DNA from: an uncultured Bacilli bacterium
Lineage (GTDB): Bacteria > Bacillota_I > Bacilli_A > RF39 > UBA660
Reading direction: 5' to 3'
Length of the DNA stretch: 34,365 nt
NCBI GenBank assembly: GCA_947628065.1
Contig: CANQYK010000007.1
Location: 1-34,365 of the forward strand
The notes beneath the pieces are model-generated. The model was not told the origin of the DNA. It did not search any database and saw only the letters and a list, made by a program, of their open reading frames with translations. Below, piece after piece: positions 387 through 6,430 of the stretch. Each line of letters begins with the position of its first letter. Position 1 is the first letter of the stretch. The translations under genes and the position numbers were made by a program.

Positions 387-2078
387 ATGAATGAGAAAAA
401 GAAATTAGTAATATCCATATTAGGAGTAATCCTATTAATAATCGCAGTAGTAAGTATTAGTTATGCAGCATTTAACTATAGTAAAACAGGACAAACAATA
501 AATAGTATAACAACAAGTACGATTGTAATGAATTATACGGAAAAAGAAAATGGAATCAGATTAGTGGATGCTGTACCAATGGAAGATGCGAATGGAAAAG
601 TCTTAACAGGAGCAGGAAATGTATTTGACTTTACAGTCTCAGCAAACATTTCAGGAGAAACTACAATAAACTATGCCATAACAGGAAGTAAAGTAGAAGG
701 AACAACCTTACCAGATCATGCAGTAAAGGTATGGCTAACCTCAGCAGATGATGCAATTATAGAATTAGATGGAGTAAGTAGTTTAACAGATGATGCGAAA
801 AAGATAAGTGAATTAAGACTAACAAGTAATGATGCATCCGGTGCACCTAACAACCAATATATCTTAAAAACAGGAGTAATAACATCATCAGAAGTAACGA
901 ATTATAGATTAAGAATGTGGATAGCAAGTGATTATCAATTAAAAGAAGATCAAGTTGAAACCTATAAGTTAAGAGTCAATGTCTATGGAAAAGAAGGAAT
1001 ACCAGAACCAAAGGGAGAACCGGGAGTAGAAAAGTTACTAGCAGAATTTACGAATGATGAAGCAATACAAGATTATGATTTAGAATATACAAAAGAAGAT
1101 AGTAGTGCAAAAGAGAATAAGATGTATGTGTTTAATCATGAAGCAGGAACGCAACAAAGTGGATGGAGTAGTGATGAATTAAAGGATTATAGATATATAG
1201 GAGCAAATCCAAATAATTATGTAACCTTCAATAATGAAGAAGCAGGATGGAGAATAATAGGGATCGAAACAGTAGATGATGGAACAGGAAAGAGGGAAAA
1301 AAGAATCAAATTAATAAGAAAAGACCTATTACCAGTAGGAACAGATAATTACTTATCATGGGATAATAAACCAAGTGGAACAGGATCATCAGAGGATGAT
1401 GCTGGAAGTAATGATTGGACCGATTCAAGATTAATGTATTTATTAAATCCAAATCATGAGAGTGAGACAACAGGAGTAAGTGGAAGTATCTACTGGAACA
1501 GGCAAAGCGGAAATTGTCCAACGGGACGAAACAATGCAACAACGACTTGTGATTTTAGTGAAGTAGGACTGTTGCCAGAGGCCCAAGCAATGATAGGAGA
1601 TGCGAAATGGTATTTGGGTGGAAATAGTACAGGAAATGGAGTATTAACAGAAGCATATTATAAATTTGAAAGAGGAGAAACAGTATACCAAAGTAGTAGT
1701 CATCCAAGAAAAACGAACTGGACAGGGAAAGTAGGATTGATGTATCCTTCTGACTATGGATATGCGACAAGTGGAGGAAGTAGTGCGACGCGAGCAACCT
1801 GTTTAGCAAAAGAGTTGTATAACTGGAGAAGCGGTGAGGTAGTAAGTGATTGTTATAATAATGACTGGCTCTTTATTAATAACAAGTATCAATGGACAAT
1901 CGCCCCGTACTCCGGCTACTCGTACTATGTGTTCCGTGTGATCACCGGTGGGTGTGTCGACAGCAACAGCAACGCGAGCCTCAGATTCGGGGCTCGGCCA
2001 GTCGTATATCTAGTATCTAATATCCAATTGCTAAAAGGTACAGGAGCGGAAACTGACCCATTTGTATTTGGGCTTTAA
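387..2078 (+). CDS. Membrane-anchored surface protein with DGR-type variable C-terminus
   Basis: This 563-residue protein begins with a short basic stretch and one hydrophobic segment (about 5-29, ending SYAAF), so it is an anchored or exported surface protein. Residues 30-210 are Thr/Ser-rich and probably beta-sandwich. From about 225 to the end lies a domain with motifs typical of C-type-lectin-fold/DUF6273-like ligand domains (WRIIGIE, DSRLMYLLN, FGARPVVYL, GTGAETDPF). I chose the ATG at 387 over the in-frame GTG at 378 because AAGAGGTGG sits 6-9 nt upstream of it. Residues 505-541 are encoded by DNA of sharply different composition, described separately. The protein is probably displayed outside the cell and binds a ligand; the ligand is unknown. 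It is a monocistronic unit between the promoter at 324-352 and the terminator at 2171-2204. Confidence 0.85.
   Translation: MNEKKKLVISILGVILLIIAVVSISYAAFNYSKTGQTINSITTSTIVMNYTEKENGIRLVDAVPMEDANGKVLTGAGNVFDFTVSANISGETTINYAITGSKVEGTTLPDHAVKVWLTSADDAIIELDGVSSLTDDAKKISELRLTSNDASGAPNNQYILKTGVITSSEVTNYRLRMWIASDYQLKEDQVETYKLRVNVYGKEGIPEPKGEPGVEKLLAEFTNDEAIQDYDLEYTKEDSSAKENKMYVFNHEAGTQQSGWSSDELKDYRYIGANPNNYVTFNNEEAGWRIIGIETVDDGTGKREKRIKLIRKDLLPVGTDNYLSWDNKPSGTGSSEDDAGSNDWTDSRLMYLLNPNHESETTGVSGSIYWNRQSGNCPTGRNNATTTCDFSEVGLLPEAQAMIGDAKWYLGGNSTGNGVLTEAYYKFERGETVYQSSSHPRKTNWTGKVGLMYPSDYGYATSGGSSATRATCLAKELYNWRSGEVVSDCYNNDWLFINNKYQWTIAPYSGYSYYVFRVITGGCVDSNSNASLRFGARPVVYLVSNIQLLKGTGAETDPFVFGL
1898..2007 (+). 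other. Putative DGR variable region (VR)
   Basis: By hand count this 110-bp segment is 65/110 G+C with only 20 A, whereas the flanking gene is strongly A-rich. It encodes residues 505-541. Fixed-looking codons (TCG, GTG TTC, GTG, GGG, GTC, GCG, then TTC GGG GCT CGG) alternate with codons ending in C or T (GGC, TAC, TAC, TAT, CGT, ATC, ACC, GGT, TGT, GAC, AGC, AAC, AGC, AAC, AGC, CTC). All of the latter can be derived from AAC or AAT by changing only A. That is the signature of adenine-directed mutagenic retrohoming onto a C-type-lectin-fold target. The G/C-rich end near 1985-2004 would be the initiation-of-homology site. Template and reverse transcriptase are not in the window. Confidence 0.7.
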
Positions 2079-5179: not shown

Positions 5180-6430
5180 ATGGAATTTGTAACACTAGAA
5201 AAAGAAGAGTTTGAAAAGTTTTCGAAACAACATAAGCAAAGTTGTTATTTACAAAGTGTAGAAGTAGCGACCTTAAGAAAAAAAACAGGATGGGATAGTG
5301 TTTTCTTAGGAGTAAAAGAAGATGGTAAACTTTTGGCAGCAACCCTTTTATTATCCAAAAAAAGACATATTAAAAAAGAATTTTATGCGATTCGAGGACC
5401 TCTTGTAGACTTTGAAGACAAAGAACTTCTTACCTTTTTTATAAACCATTTAAAAAAATATGTCAAAGAAAATGATGGTTATTTTTTAAGAATAGATCCT
5501 TATTTCGAAGCCGTATCAAGAAATCAGAATGGAGAAGAGACAGAAGAATTTGATCATAGAGGAGTAAAAGATACCCTACGGCAACTTGGTTTTATAGAAC
5601 AAGATTCCAAAGAAATAACCGATACTATTCAAGCAAAATTTATGTATGTAATTGATTTGAAACAAGGTTTTGACAATATTTTACGTGAAATGGATAGAAA
5701 AACAAGACAAGCCGTTCAAAAAAATGAACGTATGGGTGTTGTATTACGAGAGGGAACAAGAGAAGATATTCCTTTGTTTGCCGATATTATGATCTCAACA
5801 GGGGAAAGAAGAAACTTTAAAGATCGAGGAGAAAAGTTTTATTATGATATGTATGATAGTTTTCATGATAGTAAGATGATTTCCTTTGTTTTTGCAGAAC
5901 TTGATACTATTATTGCTAGAAGTAAAATAGAAGAAGAAAGAAAGAAAATAGAAGATGCAAGACGGGATAGAGAAGAAAAAAGAAAACAAGGAAACTGCAA
6001 TGAGAAGAAAGCCAAAGCCAAAGAACAAGAAGAAGAAAGTACCTTAATGCGTCTTAACAGTCGAGAAGAAGAGTTAAAAACATTAGAAGAAAAGTATGGA
6101 AAGAAAATTCCATTGGGTGGCATCTTATATACTTTTTATGGTGGAGAATGTGCCAGTGTATTTGGAGGATGCTTTAAAGAATTTCGAGAATACCAGCCTT
6201 TTTATACCATCCATTATGAAATGATTAAAAAGTCTTGCGAAGAAGGATATCGACGTTATAACTTTTATGGCATTAACAACCATTTAGAAAAAGAGGATCC
6301 TCTTTATGGAATCTATCAAACAAAAAAAGCCTTTGGTGGGCATGTTATAGAGCTTTTGGGTGAATTTATTTTACCAGTCGATAAGAAAGTATATGAATTA
6401 TCAAAATTATGGAAAAAAATAAAAAGATAG
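5180..6430 (+). CDS. FemX/FemAB-type peptidoglycan aminoacyltransferase, copy 2
   Basis: A 416-residue paralogue of the preceding gene, seven bases downstream, with ribosome binding site GTAGGGAT. It keeps the same order of motifs: TLEKEEFEKF at the N-terminus, FYAIRGPLVDF (68-78), RIDPYF (104-109), TRQAVQKNERM (175-185), ERRNFKDR (209-216) and NFYGINNH near the end. The coiled-coil arm (about 241-306) is rich in Glu/Lys/Arg and differs strongly in sequence from copy 1. In staphylococci, successive bridge residues are added by different Fem paralogues. Separate residue or position specificity is the likely reason for the duplication, but this is inferred. Confidence 0.88.
   Translation: MEFVTLEKEEFEKFSKQHKQSCYLQSVEVATLRKKTGWDSVFLGVKEDGKLLAATLLLSKKRHIKKEFYAIRGPLVDFEDKELLTFFINHLKKYVKENDGYFLRIDPYFEAVSRNQNGEETEEFDHRGVKDTLRQLGFIEQDSKEITDTIQAKFMYVIDLKQGFDNILREMDRKTRQAVQKNERMGVVLREGTREDIPLFADIMISTGERRNFKDRGEKFYYDMYDSFHDSKMISFVFAELDTIIARSKIEEERKKIEDARRDREEKRKQGNCNEKKAKAKEQEEESTLMRLNSREEELKTLEEKYGKKIPLGGILYTFYGGECASVFGGCFKEFREYQPFYTIHYEMIKKSCEEGYRRYNFYGINNHLEKEDPLYGIYQTKKAFGGHVIELLGEFILPVDKKVYELSKLWKKIKR

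Follow-up and report, generated by a model that had tools for sequence, protein, structure and literature searches.

A GC-rich, codon-patterned patch as the very probable variable repeat of a retroelement target gene in a Bacilli genome with an expanded target family

The target gene and its GC-rich patch

The window analysed here is a stretch of 34,365 nucleotides from an uncultured Bacilli bacterium (GenBank assembly GCA_947628065.1, contig CANQYK010000007.1). Its forward strand carries an open reading frame (378-2078) coding for a protein of 566 aa, which is assigned as a target gene of a diversity-generating retroelement (DGR) on the basis of its translation and of 76 stretches of its own genome that are related to the whole gene. 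The protein consists of an N-terminal hydrophobic segment, a middle region and a C-terminal target domain of 357 aa (1005-2078, forward strand). The gene contains 39.9% A and 36.6% G+C. Near its 3' end, a patch at 1898-2007 contains 20 A, 33 C, 32 G and 25 T and thus 65 G+C. The initial annotation had described this patch as a 110-bp GC-rich island at the 3' end of an A-rich gene, and our recount gives identical figures. At the 110-bp scale, the GC maximum of the window starts at 1895 (67 G+C), and all stretches with at least 60 G+C start within 1881-1912. The patch is therefore real, but the functional unit is better delimited as about 1893-2012 (forward strand). This stretch encloses the patch and is very probably a template-derived variable repeat (VR), in which hypervariable codons of the AAY type stand between fixed codons. 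The assignment is based on a codon table of 20 paralogs, on third-base and permutation tests and on near-identical paralogs.

The 3' end of the VR, CCAGTCGTATATCTA (1998-2012, forward strand), is near-invariant in fresh VRs and is followed by unrelated sequences; it is a possible candidate for the initiation-of-homing site. Downstream of the gene, a GC-rich hairpin lies at 2092-2130 on the forward strand (the fold of 2081-2145 has -27.0 kcal/mol). A similar hairpin follows paralogs on contigs C1, C24, C98 and C31 (five target paralogs in total) and is absent behind others. A role of the hairpin as a DGR target-recognition structure was considered and rejected. Because many VRs have no hairpin downstream, it is read as a probable terminator, copied together with the target genes. 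Just 5' of the target gene, a run of 10 G lies within a 16-codon open frame (MEISLPNVTWGGGKNR, 198-248), possibly a phase-variable frame or a frameshifted remnant.

The C-type-lectin fold that the initial annotation had proposed for the 3' part of the gene is not confirmed. A sequence search of the PDB with the target domain gives nothing beyond E 0.043, DUF6273 matches weakly in 2 of 31 relatives, and the AlphaFold model of the domain (pLDDT 41) is too poor for fold searching. The domain may be called C-type-lectin-like by analogy only. Given its N-terminal segment and the precedent of known DGR targets, the protein would be exposed on the surface and would bind variable ligands, and the gene family probably codes for cell-surface proteins.

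The target family and the codon pattern of its variable repeats

The genome (1.55 Mb in 135 contigs, 92.9% complete, 6.7% estimated contamination) accommodates a large family of such genes. The C-terminal 357-aa query finds 48 matches in it, as opposed to 0-7 in each of 34 congeners, and 47 distinct C-terminal stretches entered the paralog comparison. About 20 paralogs carry a GC-rich patch at the same place, bounded by the same codons; such a recurrence is more than chance. Clearly template-fresh VRs are present in about 20 of the roughly 48 domain matches, and many older copies of the family have AT-rich, decayed tips. DGR target genes are an already known kind of gene, to which the window gene is added. 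The family itself adds a lineage of gut Bacilli in which about 48 target-domain matches are packed into a 1.5-Mb genome, far exceeding the congeners.

Variation in the VR follows codon position. In 20 paralogs, which were selected as a template-fresh set by the G+C content of their VRs, VR divergence is 0.41 at codon positions 1 and 2 and 0.31 at position 3. In the flanks of the same paralogs the order is reversed (0.18 and 0.29, respectively), and the contrast between VR and flank has a permutation p of 5e-5. The hypervariable codons end in C 194 times, in T 91 times, in G 24 times and in A 4 times, so that 91% of the third bases are C or T; the third bases of the flanks are mostly A or T. 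Within the window, the presumed variable codons had been said to end in C or T without exception. Nearly all of them do so, but AGA at 1983-1985 ends in A. At alignment column 79, which corresponds to CGT at 1935 of the window, 20 of 20 copies have an NNT codon; nine different codons occur there and the third base is constant.

Near-identical paralogs within one genome can stand in for a comparison between strains. Three of them, on contigs C24, C116 and C32, have 0-1 mismatch over 52-124 nt upstream of the VR. Their VRs have 18-22 mismatches in 105 nt, all of which fall on codon position 1 or 2 and none on position 3. Immediately after CTA, the C24 copy is unrelated to the C116 and C32 copies. 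Such paralogs with wholly different tips can be read as a record of mutagenic retrohoming in a single genome, for which population data are unneeded. Linked sets of fixed codons, judged by eye, suggest at least three templates.

Target modules also occur in tandem within single long frames on contigs C12, C39, C62 and C48 (up to 1822 aa), in which the VRs are internal rather than terminal. One frame of 1046 aa (G000:C32:8382-10520) contains two modules, and both have a template-like VR of their own.

Reverse transcriptases, templates and DGR cassettes

A search of the genome with the PF00078 profile yields two real reverse transcriptases (RTs), on contigs C105 and C114. Contig C105 ends in the C-terminal half of a DGR-type RT, which comprises 160 aa in an intact frame, contains the motifs IGNMTSQ and YMDD and adjoins the terminus of a mobile element at the contig end. 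This half is 62% identical to the intact 360-aa RT of the congener G001. The RT on C114 (G000:C114:427-1095, L011) was rejected as a DGR RT; it has a group II intron-type sequence and adjoins uvrC. An RVT_1 match at 5576-5728 of the window lies below the cut-off and is taken as chance. The N-terminal half of the DGR RT was not found in the 135-contig assembly, and neither an inferred two-class template nor a 15-bp pattern located the template (TR) in this 93% complete assembly; both matched VRs only. We infer that the missing RT half, Avd and the template lie in unassembled DNA. The initial annotation had expected both a template copy and a DGR RT in the genome, and had taken the lack of both as evidence against a DGR; a DGR-type RT fragment is present on C105, although no template copy was found. 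A small ORF overlaps the RT stop on C105, as in the related locus L160. Because the TR of L160 lies upstream of the MutS-I-like gene, it is no contradiction that no TR was found behind the RT half on C105.

Complete DGR cassettes are directly observed in congeners. The gene order in G001 is target, MutS-I-like protein, Avd-like protein, RT, TR and small ORF. The best PDB match of its RT is 8ub7, the RT of the BPP-1 DGR, and its Avd-like protein matches bAvd and the PHROG family 'Avd protein of DGR'. Self-comparison of several congeners gives TR-VR pairs in which 80-100% of the mismatches lie at template A, and the corresponding range is 88-100% in relatives among goat rectum, 'RUG' and 'Lapin' MAGs (Bacilli / Erysipelotrichaceae). 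Related cassettes with TR-VR pairs biased to template A are also present in G017 and G005. The target domain of the window is 39% identical to the target adjoining the DGR in L161. A template written from the VRs of the own genome, with A at the variable positions, has a single match in other genomes, the TR of G017, which lies just behind the G017 RT; because this template was built with DGR logic in mind, the match is supporting but not independent evidence.

A small protein lies beside Avd in the DGRs of congeners (L093:9176-9559, L157:3387-3767, L161:1630-2001). That of L093 matches MutS domain I (PF01624), and a MutS-domain-I protein has been described as a DGR accessory (PMC10053308). 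DGR-like RTs belonging to several subtypes are present in nearly all members of the genus; some have internal stops or split frames, which suggests frequent loss.

The system resembles cellular DGRs with dispersed or multiple targets, such as those of Treponema denticola (PMC4891356) and Thiohalocapsa PB-PSB1 (PMC10907252), in that VRs occur in several target genes per cell, variation is found at codon positions 1 and 2, and an RT is accompanied by an Avd-like partner (here in relatives). It differs from both in that this assembly is without a template or a complete RT, and from PB-PSB1, for which 15 targets and 21 VRs have been reported (PMC10907252), in its approximately 48 target-domain matches. 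With the BPP-1 phage DGR (Mtd, Avd, RT) it shares, through the congeners, the RT whose best match is 8ub7 and the neighbouring Avd-like protein. However, it is chromosomal, has many targets and an additional MutS-domain-I protein, and no phage relatives of the target were found here. Two features, the size of the target family and an element at the RT site (described below), go beyond an ordinary DGR and would be unexpected to a specialist.

We are highly confident in the reading of 1893-2012 as a DGR variable repeat within a target gene. In the proposed mechanism, a template RNA with variable codons AAC or AAT would be copied by the DGR RT together with its Avd partner, the RT would misincorporate opposite template A, and the mutated cDNA would replace the VR. 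This would randomise the first two bases of the AAY codons and leave third positions and A-free codons as fixed by the template. The patch would be rich in GC because AAY codons are randomised at two positions and the fixed codons are free of A. The derivation of the variable codons from AAY by adenine mutagenesis, proposed in the initial annotation, agrees well with variation centred on the first two bases of AAY-type codons and with the A-specific TR-VR pairs of congeners. A DGR variable region can thus be recognisable from a single copy by its composition and codon pattern alone.

It is quite conceivable, at somewhat below even chance, that the VRs are fossils, made by a DGR that is now dead because a RIT-like element has split its RT and its template is lost, so that the tips evolve by ordinary mutation only. 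The position of the RT half, next to an element terminus where its contig stops, the absence of the other half and of the template from the assembly, and the many older copies with decayed tips are consistent with such an inactive system. However, the tips are very fresh compared with their flanks, and the RT half keeps an intact frame. Moreover, the incomplete assembly breaks at the RT, exactly where the repeat lies, so that the remaining RT and template may be merely unbinned. This alternative concerns present activity rather than origin and is compatible with the VR assignment. Alternatively, gene conversion between the expanded paralogs, together with ordinary mutation and strong positive selection at a binding site, would have diversified them without any RT. 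This reading would draw on the very many paralogs available for recombination and on the failure to find a template in the own assembly. It is nevertheless very unlikely, because it has to explain why VRs with 18-22 differences have none of them at third positions and lie next to flanks with 0-1, why the third base never changed among nine NNT codons at one site, and why congeners have the same patch copied from adjacent templates. An origin as ordinary foreign DNA, such as that of a phage or a plasmid, would explain a GC content sharply unlike that of the rest of the gene irrespective of mutagenesis, but it is hardly credible given the codon-position pattern, the same start and end codons of the patch in about 20 genes, and searches of IMG/VR, phage and plasmid collections that returned no protein related to the target.

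A RIT-like element at DGR reverse transcriptases

The element terminus upstream of the RT half on C105 is GGTTATGAAAACTAATTTATTATGCAAAGTA, in inverted orientation (G000:C105:3912-3942). In another congener, G022, a related terminus together with a 28-bp near-palindrome interrupts two DGR RTs that resemble each other only distantly, in each case at the same codon. The junctions between element and RT lie at the ends of the G022 contigs C29, C21, C11 and C5, and the halves were paired by homology. In-silico joining of these halves produces open frames of 363 aa (345/363 identical to the RT of G001) and 317 aa. The elements of the present genome (G000) and of G022 are assembled at their ends only, and a complete copy that has the G000 terminus is found in G381 (G381:C51:1047-4441, L175). 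It contains three overlapping tyrosine recombinase genes (Phage_integrase ORFs) between near-identical inverted ends; one end adjoins the C-terminal half of a DGR RT at the same codon, and the other lies within a DGR-target-like gene. RIT-like insertion at one conserved codon (PI|GN) of DGR RTs is seen in three species, and the RT of the present strain appears to be currently interrupted by such an element.

The element shares with RIT elements (PMC3414803) three adjacent overlapping tyrosine recombinase genes, a size of about 3.4-3.5 kb, terminal inverted repeats and a palindrome at one end, but differs in its insertion at one DGR RT codon in three species. No association between RIT elements and DGR RTs was found in the literature searched. 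One speculative and rather improbable explanation is that the element uses the site CC.AT.|GG.AAY (PI|GN) of DGR RTs for integration and acts as a reversible off-switch of hypermutation. The joined G022 halves illustrate how precise excision would then bring back an open RT frame, and the host would keep its large and dispersed set of target tips. A three-recombinase element that has entered DGR RTs repeatedly, at one codon in three species, offers a testable case of an element that parasitises or switches a hypermutation system. The terminus GGTTATGAAAACTAATTTATTATGCAAAGTA also breaks an IS66-like gene where contig C5 of the present strain ends (G000:C5:40792-40822).
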